Assembly: GCA_018970145.1 (NCBI GenBank)
Contig: JAGWWY010000006.1
Location: forward strand, 1-64,000
DNA from: Gammaproteobacteria bacterium
Lineage (GTDB): Bacteria > Pseudomonadota > Gammaproteobacteria > Steroidobacterales > Steroidobacteraceae
Reading direction: 5' to 3'
DNA length: 64,000 bases
The notes beneath the pieces are model-generated. The model searched no databases, was not told the DNA's origin, and saw nothing but the letters and a program-made list of their open reading frames with translations. Shown here one piece after another: positions 6,483-23,906 of the stretch. How positions within the stretch are numbered: the first letter of the stretch is position 1; each line of letters opens with the position of its first letter. Made by a program: the position numbers and the translations under genes.

Positions 6483-7250
6483 ATGAACGTGCTCGCGCTC
6501 GATACCTCGACCGAAGCCTGCTCCGCGGCGCTCAGCGTGGCGGGGCAGCTCAGCGTGCGCGAAGTCGAAGCGCCGCGCGGGCACGCCGACTTGTTGCTAC
6601 CCATGATCGATGAACTTTTGGACGAAGCGGGTCTCGCGCTGTCGAATCTGCAGGCCATCGCGTTCGCGCGGGGTCCTGGTAGTTTCACGGGCGTAAGACT
6701 TGCCGCGAGTGTCGTGCAAGGTTTGGCCTTCGGCGCGGGGTTACCCGTGGTCCCCGTGTCGACGTTAGCCGCGGTGGCGCTGCGCGCGCTCGAGACGGCG
6801 CGCAACGACGGACTTGAGCCAAACGAGATTTGGGTCTGTAACGATGCTCGGATGGGTGAGGTTTATCACGCCGTGTTCGCCGTGAGCGATCTTGCGCAGG
6901 CGGCCACGCACTCGGGCGGTGTGGCCGAGTCGGTGAGTTCGCCGCGGGTCGTCACCGAGCGATGGGCTGAGCAGACCGTTGCTTCGACGACGGCGGGTGT
7001 GATTGCGCAGCCGCGTCTCGTCATTGGCGCCGGTCATGGGTACAGGGCTCATCCGGAACTCGCGGCATTGCCCGGCCTCACCAAGGTCTACCCCGACTTG
7101 CTGCCGCGCGCGCGCGAGGTGCTGGCACTGGCAGTGCCGGCAGTTGAGGCGGGCTTGGGCATTGATCCGACACAGGCTGTGCCAATCTATGTGCGCGACC
7201 AGGTCGCAAAGATTCCCGAGTGTCACAGCCCTGCAACACGAGTCGTTTGA
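6483..7250 (+). CDS. tsaB: tRNA threonylcarbamoyladenosine biosynthesis protein TsaB
   Basis: TsaB is the catalytically inactive ASKHA-fold partner of TsaD in the TsaB-TsaD-TsaE complex that installs t6A37 on ANN-decoding tRNAs. The N-terminus MNVLALDTSTEACSAAL and the ARGPGSFTGVRLAASVVQGL motif (about residues 60-82) are diagnostic. At 255 residues it is slightly longer than the E. coli protein (231). It starts on the base after the yoaA stop and is followed closely by phoB. Confidence 0.93.
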   Translation: MNVLALDTSTEACSAALSVAGQLSVREVEAPRGHADLLLPMIDELLDEAGLALSNLQAIAFARGPGSFTGVRLAASVVQGLAFGAGLPVVPVSTLAAVALRALETARNDGLEPNEIWVCNDARMGEVYHAVFAVSDLAQAATHSGGVAESVSSPRVVTERWAEQTVASTTAGVIAQPRLVIGAGHGYRAHPELAALPGLTKVYPDLLPRAREVLALAVPAVEAGLGIDPTQAVPIYVRDQVAKIPECHSPATRVV

Positions 7251-7286
7251 AATATGTCTGAAACGAGGACAACACGACTTCCCCTG

Positions 7287-7982
7287 ATGGCAGCAAAACA
7301 GATTCTGGTCGTAGAGGACGAGAAGCCGATACGCGACATGATTGGCTTTGGTCTGCGTCGTGCGGGCTTCGAGGTTCGTGAGGCCGCCGATACCCAAGCC
7401 GCACGCGCTCAGCTGGCCGATAAGCGTCCGGATTTGATGCTCGTCGATTGGATGTTGCCGGACATGAGCGGGCTCGAATTCACGCGACAGGTCAAGCGAG
7501 ACGCAAATTTCCGCGATTTGCCAGTGATCATGCTCACGGCGCGCGCGGAAGAATCCGACAAGGTTGCAGGGCTTGAAGGCGGCGCCGATGATTACATCAC
7601 CAAACCGTTTTCACCGCGCGAACTTGTCGCGCGCATCAACGCGGTGCTGCGCCGCTCCGACCCGAAGGTTGAGGGCGAGGTCATCGACTTCGAAGGTTTG
7701 AAGCTGGATCCAGTCGCGCATCGGGTCATGGCAGGTGACAAACCTGTGACACTCGGTCCCACCGAGTACCGCATGCTGGAATTCTTCATGACACATCCCG
7801 ATCGGGTCTATTCGCGCGAGCAGTTGCTCGATCGGATCTGGGGTGGCAACGTGTATGTGGAAGAGCGCACCATCGATGTGCATATCCGCCGCCTGCGCAA
7901 AGCACTCGAGGAATTCGGGTACGATCGCATGGTGCAAACGGTGCGCGGAGCGGGATACCGATTCTCTCCCCGCGCGGAGTGA
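7287..7982 (+). CDS. phoB: Phosphate regulon response regulator PhoB
   Basis: An OmpR-type response regulator. The receiver domain (about residues 1-120) has the acidic pair in VVEDEKP, the phospho-acceptor Asp in [11 protein letters not shown], and the Lys in [16 protein letters not shown]. It is followed by a winged-helix DNA-binding domain ending [14 protein letters not shown]. PhoB binds 11-bp direct repeats (Pho boxes) and recruits sigma-70. I chose ATG 7287 (231 residues, as in E. coli). ATG 7254 would add 11 residues with unlike codon use, and neither start has a good ribosome site. The neighbours phoR and phoU and the nearby pst operon fix the identity as PhoB rather than another OmpR-family regulator. 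Confidence 0.95.
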
Positions 7983-7988
7983 ATTCAG

Positions 7989-9341
7989 CTGAACAACGGT
8001 TTCCAGGATTGGGCGTTCGCGCTCGGCCGTCTCGCGCTCGTCGTCGGGCTCGGAATCGCGGTCGGTTTTGTTGTGGGTCATCCGTGGTGGGGTATTGCGG
8101 GCGCCCTCGCAGTCGAGCTCGTCCGCAACCTCGTCAACCTGCACCAGTTCGATCATTGGCTGCGTAATCGCAATCGCCGCGATCCACCGGATGCGGGCGG
8201 CCTCTGGGGCGATCTGGTCTCGCAAGTGTCGCGGCTACATCGTCGCAAGCAGTTCCACAAGAAGCGCCTGCTGAGCCTGTTCCGTGAGCTGCGTCGTTCG
8301 ACAGCTTCCATGCCTGACGGTGTCGTCGCGCTCAATGCGGCCAAAGAAATCGTCTGGTTCAATCGTAAGGCGGCCGAACTGCTCGGGCTCAAGCGCAAGA
8401 CGGACTTTGGCATTCAGATTGCCGGGTTGCTGCGGGTGCCGGAGTTCTCGCGTTATTTGAGCAGCGGCGACTACAGCACGAGTCTGCGTGTGCCGCCGCG
8501 CGTGGGTGATGCGACCACGCTGGAATTTCAAGGTGTGCCGTATGGCGAGGGGCAGGTGTTCTTGTTGGTGCGCGATGTCACGAGGCAGTCGCAGCTCGAA
8601 ACGATGCGCAAAGATTTCGTCGCGAACGCCTCGCATGAACTACGCTCGCCGTTGACCGTCATTTCGGGCTATCTCGAGACACTCGCACTCGATGACACCT
8701 TACCTGACGATCTGCGTGGGCCGATCGGTGAGATGCGACGACAGTCTGAGCGGATGACGACGATCATTTCGGATCTGCTCGAACTCTCGCGCCTCGAGGC
8801 GACCGATGAACAGGTCGTTGGAACTCCGATCGATGTGGCGGGTCTACTGACGCTGCTGCGCAAGGATTTGGCGGCGCGCGATGCAAAGGTGCACGCCGTG
8901 GAGCTACGGATCGAGTCCCCGGATGGTTTGATGGGCGATCAGGGTCTCATGCACTCGGCGTTCTGGAATCTGGTCGACAATGCGGCCAAGTACTCGCCGC
9001 CCGGCGGGATGATCACGCTGCGCTGGTGGACCGACGACGATGGCGGTCATTTTTCTGTCACGGACACGGGGCCCGGCATTGCTGCTGAACACTTGCCGAG
9101 GTTGACCGAGCGGTTTTACCGCGTCGACCCAGGCCGAGCGCGTGACAAGGGTGGTTCGGGCCTCGGCTTGGCGATCGTGCGTCACGTGCTGCAGAAGCAC
9201 GGTGGCGAGTTGAAGATCGAGAGCGTCGAAGGGCGCGGGAGCACCTTCAGCTGCCACTTCGCCCCGACGCGACTCGTACGCGAGTCTGTCGCCAAGGCGA
9301 CCGACAGTCGCTATTCTGCAGGTCTCGATTCGAACGGGTGA
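7989..9341 (+). CDS. phoR: Phosphate regulon sensor histidine kinase PhoR
   Basis: PhoR phosphorylates PhoB when phosphate is low. In order: an N-terminal hydrophobic region with two membrane passes, a PAS-like part (SMPDGVVALNAAKEIVWFN), the H-box FVANASHELRSPLTVISGYL with the autophosphorylated His, an N-box (NLVDNAAKYSPPGG), the DTGPGI box and a glycine-rich GGSGLGLAIVRH. The first membrane segment (FALGRLALVVGLGIAVGFVV) lies upstream of the first conventional start in frame (GTG 8073), and no ATG, GTG or TTG lies between the in-frame stop at 7980 and that GTG. I therefore place the start at CTG 7989, nine bases after GGAG 7976-7979 (450 residues). ATT 7983 is another possibility. It lies directly downstream of phoB. 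Confidence 0.92.
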   Translation: MNNGFQDWAFALGRLALVVGLGIAVGFVVGHPWWGIAGALAVELVRNLVNLHQFDHWLRNRNRRDPPDAGGLWGDLVSQVSRLHRRKQFHKKRLLSLFRELRRSTASMPDGVVALNAAKEIVWFNRKAAELLGLKRKTDFGIQIAGLLRVPEFSRYLSSGDYSTSLRVPPRVGDATTLEFQGVPYGEGQVFLLVRDVTRQSQLETMRKDFVANASHELRSPLTVISGYLETLALDDTLPDDLRGPIGEMRRQSERMTTIISDLLELSRLEATDEQVVGTPIDVAGLLTLLRKDLAARDAKVHAVELRIESPDGLMGDQGLMHSAFWNLVDNAAKYSPPGGMITLRWWTDDDGGHFSVTDTGPGIAAEHLPRLTERFYRVDPGRARDKGGSGLGLAIVRHVLQKHGGELKIESVEGRGSTFSCHFAPTRLVRESVAKATDSRYSAGLDSNG

Positions 9342-9394: not shown

Positions 9395-10138
9395 ATGGAA
9401 ACGTCTGATCTCTCGCATCACATCTCGCGCCGCTTCAACGAAGAGTTAGAGCGCGTTCGCGGTCAGGTGCTCACGATGGGTGGATTCGTCGAGCAGCAGC
9501 TCGCCAAAGCAGTCTCGGCGATGGTCGAGGGTGACAGCCTCTTGGGTGAGACCGTGGCGCGGGACGACTTCGAAGTCAACAAGATGGAAGTCTCGATCGA
9601 TGAGGAGTGCTCGCGTATCCTCGCCACCCGCAATCCGACGGCAGGCGACCTACGGCTGATCGTCGCCATCATCAAAGCGATCACCGACCTCGAGCGCATG
9701 GGTGACGAGTGCGAAAAGATTGGCTACATCGCCGCGCGGCTCGCCAGTCAAGAACGCCCCGTTGATAAGTATCGCGAGATCAAGCACCTCGGTCGGGTCG
9801 TGCAGAACATGGTGCACGATGCGCTTGATGCGTTCGCGCGCATGGATCCGCAGGCGGCGCTGCGTGTCGCCCGTCAGGATCGGCTCGTCGACGAGGAGTA
9901 CGAGGCGATCCAGCGTCAGTCGATTACCTTCATGATGGAAGACCCGCGCGCGATTCGGCGTGTGATCGATGTCATGTGGGTGGTGCGCGCGCTGGAGCGA
10001 ATCGGCGATCACGCTAAGAATATTTGCGAGTATGTAGTGTTCATGGTGCACGGCAAAGACATTCGGCACGTGCGGATTGAAGACGTCGAACGCGAGCTCA
10101 AGCAGCGGGAACAAAAGCAGCGCGAGGGTGAGGGTTGA
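9395..10138 (+). CDS. phoU: Phosphate signalling complex protein PhoU
   Basis: A 247-residue all-helical protein made of two PhoU repeats. Conserved acidic metal-binding stretches are visible, such as ITDLERMGDECEKIG in the first and VRALERIGDHAKNICEYV in the second. By family, PhoU relays the state of the Pst transporter to PhoR and keeps the regulon off in high phosphate. A GGGGGTG ribosome site lies six bases before ATG 9395. Here phoU sits after phoR rather than at the end of pst. Its end overlaps the next gene by four bases (TTGA). Confidence 0.95.
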   Translation: METSDLSHHISRRFNEELERVRGQVLTMGGFVEQQLAKAVSAMVEGDSLLGETVARDDFEVNKMEVSIDEECSRILATRNPTAGDLRLIVAIIKAITDLERMGDECEKIGYIAARLASQERPVDKYREIKHLGRVVQNMVHDALDAFARMDPQAALRVARQDRLVDEEYEAIQRQSITFMMEDPRAIRRVIDVMWVVRALERIGDHAKNICEYVVFMVHGKDIRHVRIEDVERELKQREQKQREGEG

Positions 10139-10629
10139 ACCTCGATCGACGCTTCGTAAACTCGGCGGGCTCCTTGTCCTGCGCCGCGATGATGGGCTAC
10201 GCGCTGTATGCCGAGCGCGTGCTCGGTTTCGAGCCTTGTCCGCTTTGCATGTTTCAGCGAGTGGGGGTCGTGATCCTCGGAGCGGTATTTCTGATGGCCG
10301 CCCTACACAACCCGCGCGACGTCGCGGGCGCTCGTATCTACGCGGCCTTGCTGGCGCTCGCCGCAGCTTTTCCGTTGTATGTCGCCGGACGCCACGTTTA
10401 TATCCAAAGCCTGCCCTTGGGTAGCGTGCCTTCCTGCGGCGCAAGCTTTGACTACATGATGGATGTGTTTCCGCTCATGACGGTAGTGCAGAAGGTGCTC
10501 ACCGGTGCGGGCGAATGCCAAAAAATTGATTGGAGTCTGCTCGGGCTGTCGATGCCCGCGTGGGTATTCATCAGCGTGTTTGCCATCGCCGTCGTCGGTG
10601 TGTGGTCGAACGCGCGCTCGTCTCAATGA
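10135..10629 (+). CDS. dsbB: Disulfide bond formation protein B
   Basis: DsbB is an inner-membrane quinone reductase that reoxidises periplasmic DsbA. The 164-residue protein has four hydrophobic segments. The first catalytic pair is CPLC (in EPCPLCMFQRVG, about residues 38-41), and a second pair lies in the other periplasmic loop (PSCGASF and AGECQKI). These are the DsbB hallmarks. The start is TTG 10135, overlapping the phoU stop in a TTGA four-base overlap, so it is read as part of the phoBRU transcript. Why it travels with phosphate genes is not clear from sequence. Confidence 0.9.
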   Translation: MNLDRRFVNSAGSLSCAAMMGYALYAERVLGFEPCPLCMFQRVGVVILGAVFLMAALHNPRDVAGARIYAALLALAAAFPLYVAGRHVYIQSLPLGSVPSCGASFDYMMDVFPLMTVVQKVLTGAGECQKIDWSLLGLSMPAWVFISVFAIAVVGVWSNARSSQ

Positions 10630-10642
10630 TTTCGTCTTAATA

Positions 10643-10671
10643 AATTCATCGAGTCGTCATCCCGCCGTCAT
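10643..10671 (+). promoter_or_regulatory. Candidate Pho box upstream of the PlcP-like gene
   Basis: Three half-sites ending in TTCAT, GTCAT and GTCAT start their last five bases at 10645, 10656 and 10667, exactly 11 bp apart. This is the spacing of PhoB-binding half-sites (consensus CTGTCAT). The third (CCGTCAT) matches six of seven positions and the second (TCGTCAT) five. The array lies in the 90-base gap after dsbB, about 50 bases before the next gene, and phoB is encoded 3 kb upstream. Binding is inferred, not shown. Confidence 0.6.
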
Positions 10672-10719
10672 CGAAGGGGCGCAACCTCCGCGCAACTTCG
10701 GACACGCAGGGATTTGCCA

Positions 10720-11526
10720 TTGAGCCCCGCCAACGCGCCTCGTCATTGGGTCCGCAGCGTCTTCATCTCCGACATCCACTTAGGTAATCGCGGTTGCAAC
10801 GCCGCCGCGCTACTCGACTTCCTCCGCGATGTTCATACCGATACTTTGTACCTCGTCGGTGACGTGATCGACTTATGGAGCCTGCGGAAGAGTTTCTACT
10901 GGCCGCAGGAACACAACAACGTCGTTCGCACCATTCTGGGTAAAGCCAAGCACGGCACCCGTGTGGTCTACGTTCCCGGCAATCACGATGAGGACTTGCG
11001 TGAGTTTGCGGGCACGGTCTTTGGCAACCTCGAAATCGTCCGGGACTGCGTGCACACCACGGCGCGCGGTGAGCGCTTGCTCGTGCTGCACGGTGATGAG
11101 TTCGACAGCGTCGTCAAGTGCAGCCCGTGGTTGGCCGCGCTCGGTTCGCGCGCCTACGACTTCTCGATCGACATGAATCGTCACTTCAATCGGGTTCGTC
11201 GCGCCTTTGGTTACGACTATTGGTCGCTCGCGAACTATCTCAAGCACAAGGTCAAAAATGCGGTCAACTACATCTCGAGCTTCGAACAAGCGGTGGCGCA
11301 TGAAGTGAAGCGTCGTGGTCTCGATGGTGCGATTTGCGGGCATATCCATCGCGCCGAGATCACCCAGCTCGAGGGCGTGCTTTACTGCAATGACGGCGAT
11401 TGGGTCGAGAGTTGCTCGGCACTGGTCGAAGATCGTAACGGCCGCCTCGGCGTGTGGAACTGGCTCGAGATGAGCGAAGGCCTGCGTCTCGCTCGCGAGG
11501 TTCAAGCGGCGCGCGAAGTCGCTTAA
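10720..11526 (+). CDS. Metallophosphoesterase of the LpxH/PlcP family (COG2908), probable phosphate-starvation phospholipase
   Basis: A calcineurin-type phosphoesterase of 268 residues with the complete dimetal set: SDIHLG (D18, H20), GDVID (D48), GNHDED (N88, H89), HGDEFD (H124) and GHIHRAEI near residue 207. The family includes lipid A LpxH and the PlcP proteins of alphaproteobacteria, which are often annotated as UDP-2,3-diacylglucosamine hydrolase. PlcP cleaves phospholipids to diacylglycerol under phosphate limitation. The SLANYLKHKVKNAV segment and the SFEQAVAHE region resemble the PlcP-like branch as I recall it. The Pho-box-like array upstream and the glycosyltransferase and PAP2 genes downstream favour a PlcP role. 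TTG 10714 is also possible, but GGGA 10709-10712 is better spaced for TTG 10720. Confidence 0.75.
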   Translation: MSPANAPRHWVRSVFISDIHLGNRGCNAAALLDFLRDVHTDTLYLVGDVIDLWSLRKSFYWPQEHNNVVRTILGKAKHGTRVVYVPGNHDEDLREFAGTVFGNLEIVRDCVHTTARGERLLVLHGDEFDSVVKCSPWLAALGSRAYDFSIDMNRHFNRVRRAFGYDYWSLANYLKHKVKNAVNYISSFEQAVAHEVKRRGLDGAICGHIHRAEITQLEGVLYCNDGDWVESCSALVEDRNGRLGVWNWLEMSEGLRLAREVQAAREVA

Positions 11527-11530
11527 GTCC

Positions 11531-12265
11531 ATGCGCCGCGCGATGATCTCACTGGCGCTCTGTCTGACTTTTGTCGCGGCTGCAGCGCGTACGGAAGAGG
11601 CCACCTTGAATGGCGAGGCGGAGGTCACGGGCAAGACGGATCGCGGCGCGCGCTTCGAGTTCGGTGGCGGACGATGCGGGGCCTTCGGTTATAGCGAGTG
11701 GCGGGATGGCGCCGGTGTGCCCATTGCGCGCGAGGAGTTGATCTACGACGGAGCGGCTTGGCAGCGCTACCGATTGCAGCGGATACCCGTCAGTCAGGAT
11801 GTCGAAGCCACTCGCGAGGGCGATGTCATCACGCTCGATATTCGCGATGGGGATCGTCGCCGCAAGGTCCGTCTCGCGGTAGAGGGAGAGGTGCTTGCGG
11901 GGCCCACGCTGATCACGAATCTGCAAGGCCAGTTGCGTGAACTGCGCCGCGGCCGATCTGTCGAGTTGCAGTATCTAGTTGCGGAGCAGGCGATGGTGCT
12001 CGGCTTACGCGCGACGACCACCGCCTACGGCGCGGACGGCCTCACCAACGTGCGACTCGAAGCCTCGTCCGCATTGTTGCGGCCGTTCGTGCCGACCACG
12101 TTGATCACTTTTGATAAGGAAGGACGTTTCGTCGGGATGCAGGGGCGACTTCTGCCGCAAAAGCAGCGCGGCGTGTCGTTGGATGGTGTCATCAGAGTGA
12201 CATATCCGGGTGGGATGCGGATCGCGTCAATGAAATCAAGTTGTAATAAGTCGACCTTATCTTAG
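11531..12265 (+). CDS. Exported protein of unknown function in the PlcP-GT4-PAP2 cluster
   Basis: I do not recognise this 244-residue protein. It begins with a signal peptide (MRRAMISLALCLTFVAAAART), so the rest (about 220 residues) should be periplasmic. What follows looks all-beta, with alternating charged and hydrophobic residues, a single internal Cys (GGGRCGAFGY) and one near the end (SSCNKS). No lipobox, transmembrane segment or catalytic motif is evident. It lies 4 bases after the PlcP-like gene and 4 bases before the glycosyltransferase, so it is almost certainly in the same operon. An accessory role in lipid or envelope remodelling is a guess from position only. ATG 11543 is an alternative start. 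Confidence 0.75.
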   Translation: MRRAMISLALCLTFVAAAARTEEATLNGEAEVTGKTDRGARFEFGGGRCGAFGYSEWRDGAGVPIAREELIYDGAAWQRYRLQRIPVSQDVEATREGDVITLDIRDGDRRRKVRLAVEGEVLAGPTLITNLQGQLRELRRGRSVELQYLVAEQAMVLGLRATTTAYGADGLTNVRLEASSALLRPFVPTTLITFDKEGRFVGMQGRLLPQKQRGVSLDGVIRVTYPGGMRIASMKSSCNKSTLS

Positions 12266-12269
12266 ATCG

Positions 12270-13454
12270 ATGAGAATTCTCATGGTCTCGGACGTTTATT
12301 TCCCCAGGGTCAATGGGGTGTCGACGTCGATCCAAACCTTTCGGCAGGACTTGTTAGGCCTCGGGCATGCCTGCACTTTGATCGCGCCGCAGTACCCGCA
12401 AGCCCCGCATATCGCCGATGACGCCGATATCGTCCGGATCCCGTCGTGGCAGGTGCCGCGTGATCCAGAGGATCGGGCCTTCAACTGGAACGAGTTCATG
12501 CGCCACACCTCGCGGCTGCGCCCTGAGGATGTCGACGTGGTGCACATCCAGACGCCGTTTTTGGCGCACTACGCGGGCGTTCGCGTCGCGCGGCGCTTGG
12601 GCGCACCGATCGTCGAGACCTACCACACTTATTTTGAACACTATCTGCATCATTACGTGCCCGCCTTGCCGGCCTCGTGGATGAAGGCGCTGGCGCGTCG
12701 CTTCACTGTTTCTCAATGTCACGACGTGCAGACGGTGATTTCGCCGTCCCGTCAAATGGCCGAAGCATTGCGTGCCTACGGCGTCGAGACGCCGATCGAG
12801 GTGTTGCCGACCGGTTTGCCGGCGGGGTGCTTCGCACCCGGGCACGGCGCCAACTTCCGCGCCGCGCACGGGATCGACCCGCAGCGCCCGGTTGCACTCT
12901 TCGTCGGTCGAGTCGCGCACGAGAAGAACATCGATTTTCTGGTGCGCATGCTCGCGCGGCTGCGCAGCAAGGTGCCCGATGTACTTTTGATCATCGCGGG
13001 TGAGGGGCCGGCCGAGTCGCATATTCGTCAGCTCGTGAGCTCACTCGGGCTTGATGCGCACGTGCTTTTCAAGGGTTATATGGATCGTACGACTACCTTG
13101 CTCGATTGCTACAACGCCGCCGATGCCTTTGTCTTTGCCTCGCGCACCGAGACGCAGGGGCTTGTGCTGCTCGAGGCGATGGCGCAGGGCACCCCGGTCG
13201 TCTCAACGGCAGTGATGGGTACTGCCGATGTGCTGGCGGGCGTGAAGGGTGCGGTGGTCGTACCGGAGGACATTGAGGCGTTCTCTGACGGGGTCGCCTC
13301 GGTGCTGCGCGATCCGGCCAAGCGCATGCTGCTCGCGGAGTTTGCCCGTGAGGATGCACAGCGCTGGACCTCGCGCAGCATGGCTGAGCGTCTCTCTCGG
13401 CTCTACGAGAACGTCATCGAGGCCGATGTGTTGCGGAGCGTGGTGACCTCATGA
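12270..13454 (+). CDS. Glycosyltransferase family 4, likely lipid (diacylglycerol) glycosyltransferase
   Basis: A 394-residue GT-B enzyme. The N-terminal acceptor domain starts MRILMVSDVYFPRVNGVSTS, a beginning shared with diacylglycerol glucosyltransferases and SqdX-like enzymes. The C-terminal nucleotide-sugar domain carries VALFVGRVAHEKNIDFLV and the retaining-family E-X7-E motif (TETQGLVLLEAM, about 293-302). There are no membrane segments, so it would act at the cytoplasmic face of the inner membrane. Together with an upstream phosphoesterase able to make diacylglycerol and a downstream PAP2 phosphatase, a sugar-to-diacylglycerol transfer is the most economical reading. Mannosyl transfer to another lipid acceptor is the main alternative. 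It overlaps the next gene by four bases (ATGA). Confidence 0.82.
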   Translation: MRILMVSDVYFPRVNGVSTSIQTFRQDLLGLGHACTLIAPQYPQAPHIADDADIVRIPSWQVPRDPEDRAFNWNEFMRHTSRLRPEDVDVVHIQTPFLAHYAGVRVARRLGAPIVETYHTYFEHYLHHYVPALPASWMKALARRFTVSQCHDVQTVISPSRQMAEALRAYGVETPIEVLPTGLPAGCFAPGHGANFRAAHGIDPQRPVALFVGRVAHEKNIDFLVRMLARLRSKVPDVLLIIAGEGPAESHIRQLVSSLGLDAHVLFKGYMDRTTTLLDCYNAADAFVFASRTETQGLVLLEAMAQGTPVVSTAVMGTADVLAGVKGAVVVPEDIEAFSDGVASVLRDPAKRMLLAEFAREDAQRWTSRSMAERLSRLYENVIEADVLRSVVTS

Positions 13455-13993
13455 GTGCGTTCTTCGTTCGAGTCGATCGCGCCGAACGAAGAATTTGTCT
13501 GTTGGCGAACGCGGCGTGTCGTCGCCGCTTGATTCGGAACACCTTTCGGATCTGTTCGCGTCTGGGCGACGGCGTATTTTGGTACGCGCTCATGGCTGCG
13601 ATGCCACTCATTGTTTGGGCGAGCGGCCGGACGATCGCGCAGGGCCTGTGGATTTCGCTCGAAATGCTCGCCGCCGGCGCCTTCGGTTTGCTGGTCTACA
13701 AGGCGCTCAAGAAGAAGCTGGTGCGTGAACGTCCCTACATCGGCCTAATTGGTATCGAGTGCGCCATGCCGCCGCTTGATCGTTACAGCTTTCCGTCGGG
13801 TCACACTTTGCATGCCGTGATGTTTACGGCGATCGCGATATCGCATGTGCCGGCGCTTGCGGTGTTGCTGGTGCCGTTCGCCTTGATGGTGGCTGCATCG
13901 CGTGTGGTGCTCGGCTTGCACTACCCAACCGACGTGCTCGCTGGTGCTTTGCTCGGTGCACTGATCGCGCAAGGATCGAACTGGTTGTTTTAA
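13451..13993 (+). CDS. PAP2 family membrane phosphatase
   Basis: A 180-residue integral membrane protein with the three phosphatase motifs in order: KLVRERPYI (K-x6-RP type), PSGHT (about residues 115-119, with the catalytic-pair His) and [12 protein letters not shown] (SR-x5-H). Family substrates are phosphatidic acid, phosphatidylglycerol phosphate or undecaprenyl pyrophosphate. With a PlcP-like enzyme and a glycosyltransferase upstream, phosphatidate to diacylglycerol is attractive, but undecaprenyl pyrophosphate phosphatase cannot be excluded. The start overlaps the GT4 stop (ATGA). The stop overlaps that of the convergent dapE within the palindrome TTAA. Confidence 0.85.
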
Positions 13994-15126: not shown

Positions 15127-15200
15127 GGCGCCCCTTATAGGGAGGGGGGGCGGAGAGTGCAAGCCCTTGTGCGACTTGAGTTAAATTAGATGAAACAAAT

Positions 15201-15226
15201 CTGCCATATTCGACCTCCATCATTTC
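15201..15226 (+). promoter_or_regulatory. Conserved upstream element of pstS (candidate Pho-controlled promoter)
   Basis: The bases CTGCCAT ATTC followed by CTCCATCATT match, with 20 of 24 identical, the element at 22266-22289 that ends the Pho-box array in front of the lipoprotein gene. The first seven bases fit a Pho half-site at six of seven positions. CATCAT further on could serve as a -10. Other half-sites at this locus are degenerate (ATGAAAC 11 bases upstream), so this is weaker than the two clear arrays. Confidence 0.45.
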
Positions 15227-15255
15227 TGTAACTCGCCAACACAGAGGTGCCGATC

Positions 15256-16308
15256 GTGTTTCAGAAACCCTTGATCTCGCTCACTTTCGCCGTCGCCTTG
15301 GCAGCGGGCTCGATCAGCGCCTCTGCACAAGCTGCTCGTGATTTCATCAACGTAGTCGGTTCCTCGACGGTCTATCCGTTCACGACGGCGGTTGCCGAGC
15401 AGCTCGGTCGTCAAGGTCGCTTCAAGACGCCGAAGGTCGAGAGCACGGGCACCGGCGGTGGTATCAAACTGTTTTGCAACGGCGTCGGTCCGCAGCATCC
15501 CGATGTCGCCAACGCTTCGCGTCGCATGAATGCCAACGAGTTTGCGACCTGCCAGAAAAATGGGGTGAAGGACGTTCTCGAGGTTCGTGTCGGCTATGAC
15601 GGTTTGACGATCTCGGAAAGCAAGCGTGGTCCGACGATGACCCTCACGCCGAAGATGGTGTATCTCGCGCTTGCCAAGCAGATTCCGGATCCGGCGAATC
15701 CGTCCGCCTTGATTTCGAACCCGTACAAGAACTGGCGCGATATTGACAAGTCGTTGCCCAACATCAAGATCGAAGTGCTCGGCCCGCCGCCGACTTCGGG
15801 TACGCGCGACTCGTTCCACGAGCTGTACATGGAGACGGGCTGCCGCACCTATCCTTGGATCGACAACCTGCGCAAGATGGACGAAAAGCGCTTCAAGCGC
15901 ATCTGCCACACGCTGCGTGAGGATGGCGCCTACGTCGAAGCCGGCGAGAATGACAACCTCATCGTGCAGAAACTCGAAGCGAATCCGAATGCGGTCGGCA
16001 TCTTCGGTTTCAGTTTTCTCGAGGAGAACCTCGATAAGTTACGCGGCCTGAAGATCAATGGCGTCGAGCCCACATTCGAGACGATCTCGTCGGGCAAGTT
16101 TCCGGCCTCGCGCCCGCTTTTCATCTACGTCAAGAAGGCGCATATCGGCGTGATCCCGGGCTTGCAGGATTTCGTCAATGAATACGTCAGTGAAAAGGCG
16201 TTGGGCGAAGAGGGTTATCTCGCCGATCGCGGTCTTGTGCCGCAGCCGAAGGGCGATCTCGCGAAGACGCGTGCGGATGTAAAGGCACTGAAGAACTTCG
16301 CGCCCTGA
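15256..16308 (+). CDS. pstS: Phosphate ABC transporter substrate-binding protein PstS
   Basis: A periplasmic phosphate-binding protein. The signal peptide MFQKPLISLTFAVALAAGS ends near ASAQA. The mature part begins with the family strand VVGSSTVYPFT and the TGTGGGIKLFC loop, and later carries GPPPTSGTRDSF, the second phosphate-binding loop. At 350 residues it fits the PstS/SphX type. Two GTG codons are in frame. AGAGG at 15243-15247 overlaps the first (15247) but is eight bases from the second (15256), so I chose the second. The stop overlaps the start of the following porin by one base. Confidence 0.93.
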   Translation: MFQKPLISLTFAVALAAGSISASAQAARDFINVVGSSTVYPFTTAVAEQLGRQGRFKTPKVESTGTGGGIKLFCNGVGPQHPDVANASRRMNANEFATCQKNGVKDVLEVRVGYDGLTISESKRGPTMTLTPKMVYLALAKQIPDPANPSALISNPYKNWRDIDKSLPNIKIEVLGPPPTSGTRDSFHELYMETGCRTYPWIDNLRKMDEKRFKRICHTLREDGAYVEAGENDNLIVQKLEANPNAVGIFGFSFLEENLDKLRGLKINGVEPTFETISSGKFPASRPLFIYVKKAHIGVIPGLQDFVNEYVSEKALGEEGYLADRGLVPQPKGDLAKTRADVKALKNFAP

Positions 16309-17670: not shown

Positions 17671-17780
17671 CAAGTATGTCGCTTTTATGCCAATCAGATG
17701 AAATTTTGATTGCACAAGGCGACCGCGGTGGCGCAAGTCGATAAAATACGGCTCCCTGACCTCGGTCTGCCTGGATCCCC

Positions 17781-21320: not shown

Positions 21321-22208
21321 TTAACGGTGCTCCGCTTCGCGGAGCCACTTCGTAGCGACCCATTTTTCGCCCGCCCGCACGGGCATGCCGCCGTGTCGGC
21401 TGCGGGTCATTGGATGTGGGCGATCGTAGCTGAAATACAGTGCGCAGCCTTTGTGTGCGGCAATCTCGAATCCTGCGTCGGGAAAGTTCGTGCCGCCGCC
21501 GTCCAACGGCGTATTCAAATACATCAAAAGTGACGCAACGCGCTGCCCGCCGCGCGCGAGAAACGGCGCTGCGCCGGGCTGGGCCGGATCGACGTAATCG
21601 TAATGCGGTTTGTATTCCTGCCCGATTTCATAACGCAGGATCTGCAGTGCTTCACCACGCTCGTAAGGCCACTGCAACAGCGCCTCGATACGTCGCTCGA
21701 TGCGCTCTATGAACGGGCTTTCGCCGCGGGTGAAGGCGGTGCCGCTGCTGGTCCGACCGGAGTCGGCGCGGGTGCTGCCAGAATCCATGTCGATCACGTG
21801 CGAGGCCTGCATGCGATCGCGTGAGAGGCGAATGAGTTCGTCGCACTCGGCATCGCTCAAAAAATCTTGAAACAGCACCACGCGCGGGCGATCGAGACTC
21901 AACATCACGTGGATGTCACGATCGAGATTCGCGCGACTCCCGGCCGGAATCACCGACGGCCAGTCGATCGAGAGTGGTTGAGGGACGGCCGTTACCGGAT
22001 CGGGTACGGGAGCGTCGCGGGTCGCCGCTTTTTCCTTGAGCTCCTCGAGGCGGGCCTCGAGCGTGCGCGTCATGAAACGGACGGCGGTTGCTTCGTCGAC
22101 ACCGCGATCGATCAGCGCCTGCAGCAGCGTGTCCGGCGGCTCACCTTTTTCGATGCAGGCGATGACCCAAGTGCGAGTTTCCGGGGTGATAGCGGGGCTG
22201 ACGGTCAC
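21321..22208 (-). CDS. Prolyl 4-hydroxylase-like 2-oxoglutarate/Fe(II) dioxygenase
   Basis: About 295 residues. The C-terminal double-stranded beta-helix oxygenase domain has the iron ligands in YKPHYDYVDP (HxD) and, near the end, SRHGGMPVRAGEKW, where the distal His and the 2-oxoglutarate-binding Lys lie. The N-terminal third is a helical region, as in bacterial P4H-like proteins. Substrates in bacteria are mostly unknown; prolyl hydroxylation of a protein is the default guess. The start is uncertain. ATG 22250 would run the coding region into the Pho-box array, and GTG 22208 gives MTVSPAITPETR, which looks like the natural beginning. Neither has a clear ribosome site. It is divergent from the lipoprotein gene and could share its control region. 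Confidence 0.85.
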   Translation of the reverse strand: MTVSPAITPETRTWVIACIEKGEPPDTLLQALIDRGVDEATAVRFMTRTLEARLEELKEKAATRDAPVPDPVTAVPQPLSIDWPSVIPAGSRANLDRDIHVMLSLDRPRVVLFQDFLSDAECDELIRLSRDRMQASHVIDMDSGSTRADSGRTSSGTAFTRGESPFIERIERRIEALLQWPYERGEALQILRYEIGQEYKPHYDYVDPAQPGAAPFLARGGQRVASLLMYLNTPLDGGGTNFPDAGFEIAAHKGCALYFSYDRPHPMTRSRHGGMPVRAGEKWVATKWLREAEHR

Positions 22209-22243
22209 TCTGAAATCATACACGGCGCGCCGTATGACACGCA

Positions 22244-22272
22244 TTGTCATATGGCGGTCATGCCCTTGTCAT
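22244..22272 (+). promoter_or_regulatory. Candidate Pho box array upstream of the lipoprotein/TonB receptor genes
   Basis: Three direct half-sites, TTGTCAT at 22244, CGGTCAT at 22255 and TTGTCAT at 22266, repeat at exactly 11 bp. Two match the PhoB consensus half-site CTGTCAT at six of seven positions. CATCAT about 12 bases after the last repeat could be the -10. The array lies 72 bases before the lipoprotein ATG and at the 5' end of the divergent hydroxylase gene, so it may serve both. Confidence 0.7.
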
Positions 22273-22343: not shown

Positions 22344-23906
22344 ATGAACAACGCCTCTCAGTCTCGCAATCTTTTGTTCCTCGCCGCCTCCGTGGCGGTG
22401 CTCGCTGCGTGCGGCGCCGAGGAAATATCCTCGCCCGGTAGCGGCGGCAACATCAGCATTACCAACAACACGCCGGCGCCGCCGCCGCCGCCACCGCCGC
22501 CGGTGAGCACGCTGGTCACGCCTGCTGCGGGTTGCCCGACGATTGATGACTCTGCGGGTCTCACCGACCTCGGCACGATCTCCGGCCCGACTGGCACGTA
22601 CCGCAACTGTGGTCTTCCGGCGCGCATTACGCGCAGCAGCAAGCTGACGCGCATCCCCGGCTTGTTGTACTCATTGCCGGGTCGCGTTGATGTCGGCACG
22701 GATTTGGGTGCCTCGGGCGGCACGGGCGTGACGCTCACCATCGACCCGGGTGTCGTGATCTTTGGTTCAACGGGTGTTTCGTGGTTGGCTGTCAACCGCG
22801 GCAATCGTATCAATGCTGTCGGCACGGCCACGCAGCCGATCGTGTTTACGAGCCGTGACAACGTGCTCGGTCTTGTCACCGACGATTCGCAGGGCCAGTG
22901 GGGCGGCGTGGTGCTGCTCGGTCGCGCGCCGATCACCGATTGCACGGTGGCGCCGAACGCGGAGCCGGGCTCGGCGAGCTGCGAACGTCAGACTGAAGGC
23001 GCGACGGACCCGGCCTATTTTGGCGGCGCGACCCCGAACGACAACAGCGGCACCATGAAGTACGTGCAGATCCGCTACTCGGGTTACGTGCTCTCGGGCA
23101 ACAGCGAATTGCAGGCGCTCACCACCGGTGGTGTGGGTAGCGGCACGGTGCTCGAGTACATCCAGTCGCACAACAGCTCGGACGACGGTCTCGAGTTCTT
23201 TGGTGGTACGCATGATCTCAAGCGCCTCGTCGTGACGGGCGCCGACGATGATACTATCGACCTCGACACGGGCTATCGCGGTTTGATCCAGTACGCGATC
23301 GGGGTGCAGAAGACCTCGGGTAACGCTGACTCGATGATCGAGCTCGACTCGACCAATGCGCTCGAGAACAACAAGCCGCGCACGTGGATGCGTATCGCCA
23401 ACTTCACCTTCATTCATCGCAACCCCGCCACGGGCAACGGCGCTGCCATGCGCTTCCGCGGTGGTGCGGACGTGTCGATGGTCAACAGCTTGTTAGTCTC
23501 GCCGATGACCTGCTTGCGTCTCGATGGCGCCAACATGCTCACGACGGACGCCGCGATCGACAAGCTCGGTCCGCCGGTCTTCAAGTCAGTGGCCCTGCAG
23601 TGTGGCACTACGCCGTTCAGCGGTTCGAGCGGCTTGACGGCGGCGCAGGTGGATGCGGTCTTCAATGTGGCTGGCAACAACAACATCTCCACCTTCACCA
23701 ACAGTCTGACGGGCGGCTTCATCAACGGTGCCAACGAGACGGGTCGCACGGCGACGGATCCGAAGACCATCGCGGCCGGCTTCGACACCACGACCTACAT
23801 CGGTGCGGTGAAGGATGCCAACGACACGTGGTACGCCGGCTGGACCTGCAACTCGGCCACCGCGAGCTTCGGTTCCACCAGCAAGTCCTGCACGTCCATC
23901 CCGTAA
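22344..23906 (+). CDS. Proline-linker lipoprotein with beta-helix-like body
   Basis: A 520-residue protein with a lipoprotein signal (LLFLAASVAVLAAC, acyl Cys at residue 23). A low-complexity linker containing eight consecutive prolines (about 45-53) is followed by a Gly/Asn/Thr-rich body of turn-strand repeats such as GTMKYVQIRYSG, GTVLEYIQSHNSSDDGLEFF and MRIANFTFIHRN. This resembles a right-handed parallel beta-helix. Eight or so cysteines outside the signal may form disulfides. ATG 22344 has GGAG ten bases upstream. The frame stays open upstream to 21867, but that part lacks a signal and lies over the opposite gene. It is followed by a TonB receptor, suggesting a surface partner that presents substrate. 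The exact substrate is unknown. Confidence 0.82.
   Translation: MNNASQSRNLLFLAASVAVLAACGAEEISSPGSGGNISITNNTPAPPPPPPPPVSTLVTPAAGCPTIDDSAGLTDLGTISGPTGTYRNCGLPARITRSSKLTRIPGLLYSLPGRVDVGTDLGASGGTGVTLTIDPGVVIFGSTGVSWLAVNRGNRINAVGTATQPIVFTSRDNVLGLVTDDSQGQWGGVVLLGRAPITDCTVAPNAEPGSASCERQTEGATDPAYFGGATPNDNSGTMKYVQIRYSGYVLSGNSELQALTTGGVGSGTVLEYIQSHNSSDDGLEFFGGTHDLKRLVVTGADDDTIDLDTGYRGLIQYAIGVQKTSGNADSMIELDSTNALENNKPRTWMRIANFTFIHRNPATGNGAAMRFRGGADVSMVNSLLVSPMTCLRLDGANMLTTDAAIDKLGPPVFKSVALQCGTTPFSGSSGLTAAQVDAVFNVAGNNNISTFTNSLTGGFINGANETGRTATDPKTIAAGFDTTTYIGAVKDANDTWYAGWTCNSATASFGSTSKSCTSIP

Follow-up and report, generated by a model that had tools for sequence, protein, structure and literature searches.

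The window analyzed here (64,000 nucleotides, positions 1 to 64,000 of contig JAGWWY010000006.1, assembly GCA_018970145.1, from a gammaproteobacterium of the Steroidobacteraceae) carries four adjoining genes that encode a PlcP-type metallophosphoesterase (plcP), a predicted exported protein (X), a GT4 glycosyltransferase (gt4) and a PAP2 phosphatase (pap2). They quite probably form a PhoB-controlled operon for membrane lipid remodeling, with a promoter, P1, in front of plcP and a second, P2, inside the operon, in which PlcP and PAP2 would feed diacylglycerol (DAG) to the GT4 enzyme. Phylogeny, synteny and Pho-site statistics support both the remodeling role and the Pho control that a first-pass annotation of this DNA had proposed. 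Gene families, clades, linkage and Pho-site statistics were computed here; the enzyme functions are inferred from relatives.

At low phosphate, phosphorylated PhoB would activate P1 to give a plcP-X-gt4-pap2 transcript, and P2, embedded in the 3'-terminal codons of X, would add a further, probably leaderless gt4-pap2 mRNA. Judged from its orthologs, PlcP would cut phospholipids to DAG, and PAP2 would supply additional DAG from phosphatidate. The GT4 enzyme, whose best curated model is an alpha-monoglucosyl-DAG synthase matched below its cut-off, would add a hexose to this DAG. An unlinked Agt with its own Pho-like site would make a second glycolipid. More speculatively, X may provide the envelope side of the exchange, for instance as a periplasmic handler or carrier of lipid.

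The plcP product belongs with PlcP

The product of the gene at 10720 carries the metallophosphoesterase motifs DxH, GDxxD, GNHD and GHxH, whose D, H and N residues do not vary in an alignment of 17 sequences. It scores 44 bits against the LpxH model TIGR01854, well short of the curated cut-off of 190.35. A tree of 49 rows was calculated from the window, 19 of 29 plcP loci of relatives, 15 of 80 named plcP loci, three references and 11 LpxH sequences. In this tree the product and 37 further PlcP-like rows are separate from the 11 LpxH with support of 100/100, and the PlcP identity suggested by the first-pass annotation is supported. The PlcP clade includes the proteins of Pseudomonas aeruginosa (the copy in L174, 54.6% identical) and Sinorhizobium meliloti (L173, 45.5%). 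From species and gene order, we take L174 to be of the PA3219-PA3218 type and L173 of the SMc00171 type. The L173 record is titled pSymB, yet at 3.7 Mb it is chromosome-like and the title is probably wrong. The plcP of congener G016 (L088, 9931-10754) is split over two frames by a frameshift or an assembly error, and its two pieces were excluded from the alignments.

The Pho box P1

The half-sites of P1, TTCAT (10645), GTCAT (10656) and GTCAT (10667), stand at the exact 11-bp steps described previously, and no second exact copy exists in the window. Allowing up to three mismatches gives four matches, one of them this site read in an overlapping register, versus 1.09 expected; four or more such matches were found in 6 of 100 shuffles, and the loose pattern by itself is weak evidence. 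A matrix was derived from the pstS promoters of congeners, with plcP promoters excluded. It was trained on seven distinct pstS triples from 11 promoters (L075 and L063 are duplicates, and L067 and L088 have no clear triple), and it ranks the P1 box fourth among all 29-mers on both strands of the window. The regions upstream of plcP in the window and 14 congeners were each compared with 300 shuffles: in 11 of the 15 regions none or one of the shuffles equaled the best site, and in no region did more than 12 do so. Pho scores upstream of dsbB were low in eight of eight congeners. The hexamer CAACCT, a candidate -10 element, also follows the P1 box in L064-L066.

Other sites in the window score well. 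The top Pho-like triple (20.4 bits) lies at 22244-22272, at the start of a gene on the minus strand (21321-22250) that we read as prolyl-4-hydroxylase-like and that has no NCBIfam match; the triple is also inside or upstream of an open reading frame (ORF) that ends at 23906 and has a lipoprotein-like stretch. The second-strongest site (16.2), at 17676-17704, precedes pstC and is distinct from the pstS site.

The predicted internal promoter P2

The regions upstream of gt4, which is in mid-operon, were entered for eight congeners as a negative control for Pho sites. P2 was noticed because several of these controls scored high (15.1, 13.7, 17.5 and 10.2; the others gave 7.6, 5.0, 1.5 and -1.3). 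In the window the last codons of X contain ATGAAAT-CAAG-TTGTAAT, a 10-bp spacer, TATCTT and 6 nt before the gt4 ATG. A layout of box, 10 bp, TAnnnT, 6-8 nt and start codon is present in all 15 gt4 promoters (window and 14 congeners), with scores of 11.2-24.9; for this scoring the gt4 start of L064-L066 and L088 was set by hand to the conserved ATG. The window P2 scores 20.6, the highest value among the 5942 start codons of the two strands; next come 18.0, 15.1, 14.9 and 13.9, the last being phoB if the plus strand is meant.

Codon usage and gene rearrangements favor P2 as a promoter. In the 10 species tested, the 3'-terminal part of X is rich in rare codons, with a mean z of -3.4 to -4.0 versus -0.80 (standard deviation 0.34) further inside; the test left out L063, a near-copy of the window, and L088, which has another layout. 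The element is retained in L075, where X is deleted. In L069 and L072 a similar element precedes the relocated gt4, and X ends without it.

Published excerpts bear on the spacing. Of 33 predicted S. meliloti PhoB boxes whose starts have been mapped, 16 are located 22-25 nt upstream of the start by the paper's own counting (PMC3616915). The gt4 box ends 22-24 nt ahead of the start codon, and with the S. meliloti spacing the RNA would begin at or beside the start codon, so the gt4-pap2 mRNA from P2 is probably leaderless. The spacing between box and core promoter is cited as strict in the consulted part of an Escherichia coli study (PMC10294691), and the conserved spacing of P2 is what would be required of a working site. 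The Pho-like box of phoB also has near-leaderless spacing (window 7247-7287, composite score 13.9, with the strand inferred), and Pho promoters of the leaderless kind may recur in the genus.

The GT4 and PAP2 enzymes

The first-pass annotation had likened the operon glycosyltransferase to Agt. It has the motifs EX7E and GRVAHEKN and is 36% identical to Agt1 over Agt1 residues 1-296, but falls in a clade apart from Agt with support of 100/100, in a tree that carries long-branch and rough-bootstrap warnings. It is thus not placed among the Agt proteins, and a true Agt, 51% identical to that of P. aeruginosa, is encoded elsewhere in the window genome (C8:33900-34874). No Pho-like site in the surrounding 15-kb region scores higher than the one upstream of that gene. 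Across eight loci of the genus the Agt promoters range from strong to none, with best scores of 18.7 and 15.8 and a score of 1.8 in L287 (35 of 300 shuffles). Among 53 models the best match of the operon enzyme is the alpha-monoglucosyl-DAG synthase NF049988 (nearly full length, 142.7 bits, under the 400-bit cut-off); the enzyme also matches the N-acetylglucosaminyl-PG synthase model (125 of 480 bits) and MshA/BshA models. The PAP2 protein is a member of its superfamily (Pfam, 70.2 bits versus 27.2) with intact motifs KX6RP, PSGH and SRX5HX3D; its best curated model is the undecaprenyl-diphosphatase SepP (56.6 of 250 bits).

A search at E 1e-60 of 369 genomes sampled from the class as a whole recovered the GT4 clade in 40, one of them the window genome. 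In the stretches fetched around gt4 in the 39 other genomes, pap2 is present in 16, plcP in 14 (13 within 3 kb), both in 5 and either in 25; a true Agt is present in 6 and phoB, phoR or phoU in 8. Eleven of the 16 pap2 loci have no plcP nearby. These GT4-PAP2 pairs without plcP make it more plausible that PAP2 produces DAG from phosphatidate. Seventeen of the 39 gt4/pap2 units have a Pho-like two-half box ahead of their first gene at p<=0.025, versus 19 of 274 control ORFs; at p<=0.005 the counts are 12 of 39 and 7 of 274. The controls were other mechanically called ORFs of about 200 residues or more from the same loci, with 200 shuffles for each test gene and 100 for each control; the matrix used across the class comes from this genus, so that distant sites were possibly missed. 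A third glycosyltransferase clade occurs near gt4 in L208, L227, L231, L234, L242 and L243 (383-400 residues, 31-36% identical to Agt1), with pap2 in five of the six.

These data point to a second glycosyltransferase and DAG source in bacterial lipid remodeling, often behind Pho-like boxes. Monoglycosyldiacylglycerol (MGDG) is described, in the consulted part of PMC9239053, as persisting without plcP-agt in an alphaproteobacterium, for which an unidentified glycosyltransferase was suggested. The GT4 clade is a candidate for such an MGDG-making enzyme by analogy only, the organism there being an alphaproteobacterium. A wider reading, possible though doubtful, is that a DAG-making PAP2 and a non-Agt GT4 with their own PhoB promoter form a second, PlcP-independent phosphate-starvation glycolipid module of gammaproteobacteria, whose promoter in this genus would be leaderless and embedded in the codons of an EipB-like periplasmic carrier of the new glycolipid to the outer membrane.

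The predicted exported protein X

X was found by sequence only within the genus, in the window genome and 14 of 23 congeners (60 relatives searched). Of the 80 named plcP loci, only two, the congener records L093 and L099, contain an X-like gene. The title of L099, Klebsiella pneumoniae, looks wrong, as L099 belongs to the sister lineage of the window; the title of L104, Asaia bogorensis, is doubtful. X accompanies plcP in 14 of the 15 congeners that have plcP and was found in none of the 8 that lack it (Fisher p 1.8e-5), an association that is weak evidence as the genes adjoin, the species are related and six of the eight plcP-less genomes are under 90% complete.

Searches of X against Pfam, NCBIfam and PDB sequences gave nothing over cut-off. 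A 19-residue hydropathy scan of the window X at 1.6 found no such segment, and a 13-residue scan of the first 60 residues of 14 X sequences found a stretch of at least 2.1 in 12, all but L067 (1.50) and L069 (1.35). This N-terminal hydrophobic stretch suggests that X is probably exported. Two cysteines, Cys49 and Cys238, do not vary among 13 sequences. A structure model predicts a core, spanning residues about 51-208, of mostly strands with two helices (predicted local distance difference test score, pLDDT, 63.7; three sequences). The top solved Foldseek match of this model is EipB/DUF1849 (6NTR; E 2.7e-5, template modeling score, TM, 0.45-0.48 over four chains), and 6NTR is again first for a second ortholog, L093, with a poor model (pLDDT 49.3; E 3.2e-4, TM 0.32-0.37).

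EipB has a disulfide. It is the top fold match for the models of two X orthologs and resembles X in its periplasmic location (predicted for X) and in having two invariant cysteines, the second near the C-terminus; it differs in that the sequence match is not significant. An hhalign comparison of X with 13 EipB-like sequences gave E 0.37, and none of 13 X members matched PF08904. Homology of X to EipB was accordingly dropped, and a predicted likeness of fold alone is claimed. Of 249 genomes sampled from the phylum, 35 contain PF08904, none of them from this class, and the window genome gave no match. As far as the consulted text of PMC10787603 goes, EipB is a periplasmic protein of envelope integrity, its function unresolved, with an architecture that has been compared to LolA and LolB.

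Gene order and genome context

The window genome is 2.43 Mb and 94.65% complete. The families assigned in gene order are Metallophos, none over cut-off (X), GT4 and PAP2. The genes are all on the plus strand with intergenic gaps of 4, 4 and -4, as tightly packed as previously described. Their placement between phoBRU and pst is likewise confirmed, with two additions: dsbB lies between phoU and the Pho site, in the order phoB-phoR-phoU-dsbB, and a convergent dapE lies between pap2 and pstS-porin-pstC-pstA-pstB. NCBIfam cut-offs were reached by pstC, pstA, pstB and dapE as well as by the three pho genes (Table 1). For plcP the gene tool picks the TTG at 10714; the TTG at 10720 aligns with the script-chosen starts of L064 and L068.

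Table 1. Coordinates of the genes and regulatory elements in the window.
Feature	Position	Strand	Basis
plcP, PlcP-type metallophosphoesterase (phospholipase C-like)	10720..11526	+	family match, phylogeny, motifs; start at 10714 also possible
X, predicted exported protein	11531..12265	+	search of relatives, alignment, structure model, hydropathy
gt4, GT4 glycosyltransferase	12270..13454	+	family match, tree, motifs
pap2, PAP2 phosphatase	13451..13993	+	family match, motifs
P1 Pho box before plcP, three half-sites at 11-bp steps	10643..10671	+	pattern and matrix scan
Weak candidate -10 CAACCT, 10 bp past the P1 box	10682..10687	+	sequence; inference
P2, Pho-type promoter in 3' end of X	12230..12263	+	box 12230-12247, 10-bp spacer, -10 TATCTT 12258-12263, 6 nt to gt4 ATG
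phoB	7287..7982	+	NCBIfam cut-off passed; Pho-like site 7247-7275 directly upstream
phoR	8073..9341	+	NCBIfam cut-off passed
phoU	9395..10138	+	NCBIfam cut-off passed
dsbB, DsbB-type disulfide protein gene	10135..10629	+	143 of 168 bits, below NCBIfam cut-off
pstS	15247..16308	+	151.2 of 206.6 bits, below NCBIfam cut-off
Pho site before pstS	15179..15207	+	one of seven matrix training sites

The sister genome G006 (100% complete) has an identical gene order, with 90-100% protein identity across thirteen compared genes. Of the 15 congener loci with plcP, 11 keep plcP-X-gt4-pap2 as one uninterrupted block. In L069 and L072, gt4-pap2 and plcP-X are separate pairs distant from pho and pst; L075 has no X; and L087 (G017) is a short contig, the X of G017 being on a different one. 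The dsbB gene adjoins the operon across the genus and X has two invariant cysteines, yet L090 and L091 have dsbB without a detected X.

Alternative interpretations

Were the plcP gene the organism's LpxH, the operon would serve lipid A synthesis or envelope housekeeping. A canonical LpxH was not found in the window genome, where the plcP gene is the sole LpxH-like match, and no LpxI was found as a substitute though LpxC is present. The first-pass annotation had counted a lone copy grouping with LpxH against PlcP, and formally the assembly holds only one copy; the sister G006, however, carries a canonical LpxH plus a PlcP 99% identical to that of the window. The sister contig with genes that their translations name as folC-, cvpA-, purF- and lpxH-like had no match in the window genome in a search made without a positive control. 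The sole purF match there, at 103 bits below cut-off in a 625-residue frame, is probably glmS. Because purF, the neighbor of lpxH in the sister, is missing too, the absence of lpxH reads most simply as an assembly gap, which it probably is. Among the 60 relatives, LpxH is over cut-off in 49 genomes, while 29 have no match to the 10720 gene at E 1e-10. Together with the low LpxH score and the separate clade, these results lead us to reject the LpxH reading as highly improbable. A Pho-controlled synthesis of envelope glycan, as opposed to bulk lipid replacement, would instead require PAP2 to be an undecaprenyl-pyrophosphate or phosphatidylglycerophosphate phosphatase and GT4 to build a surface glycan. 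SepP as the leading PAP2 model and the secondary GT4 models agree with this, but the top GT4 model is a DAG glucosyltransferase, and gt4 is repeatedly linked to plcP and to true Agt. GRVAxEKN is reported for Agt-type lipid GT4s in the consulted part of PMC8231724, but as a general GT4 feature it decides little. We regard the glycan interpretation as quite unlikely.

It is also unlikely, though less so, that P2 is not a promoter and that the 3' end of X is conserved for the protein, as a QSSCN tail, and for translational coupling to gt4. The invariance of Cys238 extends to sequences without the motif, 4 bp separate the stop of X from the start of gt4 in the window, and conservation among related species is not independent. 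The clustered rare codons are synonymous, however, the element outlasts X in L075, and both relocated gt4 genes share the 18+10+6 layout. A remodeling operon with two PhoB promoters thus remains the preferred reading, and several points weigh against it. The GT4 and PAP2 scores are far below curated cut-offs, and 14 of the 39 gt4 loci have neither pap2 nor plcP in the fetched stretch, some contigs being short. Mechanical control ORFs make the contrast with first-in-unit genes generous. The -10 of P1 is weak. The form of the P2 score was chosen after the sequences had been seen, the half-site matrix not being trained on P2, and on the box score alone the gt4 sites of L069 and L072 are weak, being equaled by 9 and 5 of 300 shuffles, respectively. 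The intragenic PhoB sites of E. coli are mostly inert and unconserved in the consulted part of PMC10294691, with flhD, phoB and pnp partly conserved.

Comparison with known lipid-remodeling systems

The pairing of PlcP with a glycosyltransferase is already documented in one gammaproteobacterium, P. aeruginosa (PMC8528852), as well as, by genome comparison, in some gammaproteobacterial methanotrophs (PMC9239053); this part of the first-pass reading is not new. The P. aeruginosa system (PA3219-PA3218, PA0842), as given in the consulted part of PMC8528852, shares with the window a PlcP ortholog, a Pho box, a downstream glycosyltransferase and a second glycosyltransferase at another locus. Unlike that system, the window has an operon GT4 outside the Agt clade, an unlinked Agt, X and PAP2 as additions and an internal Pho-type promoter. 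In marine heterotrophs, plcP also adjoins lipid-synthesis genes and putative Pho boxes; the neighbors named are agt, btaBA and other glycosyltransferase genes, and the results consulted mention no PAP2 or exported partner (PMC4796936).

The GT4 DAG alpha-glucosyltransferases (NF049988) provide the best curated model of the window enzyme, which is nonetheless far under their 400-bit cut-off. The Bacillus subtilis enzyme that figures in a methanotroph comparison is presumably UgtP, of family GT28. Type Ia methanotrophs, in the consulted part of PMC9239053, resemble the window in being gammaproteobacteria with a non-Agt putative DAG glycosyltransferase adjoining plcP; theirs is likened to the B. 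subtilis enzyme, whereas that of the window is a GT4. No pairing of PlcP with PAP2 was found among the literature matches listed, and the GT4-PAP2 module, X and P2 were not found in the literature searched, whose coverage excludes most subscription journals. What sets this operon apart from the known core, in which PlcP and a glycosyltransferase are controlled by Pho, is the GT4-PAP2 module together with X and P2.

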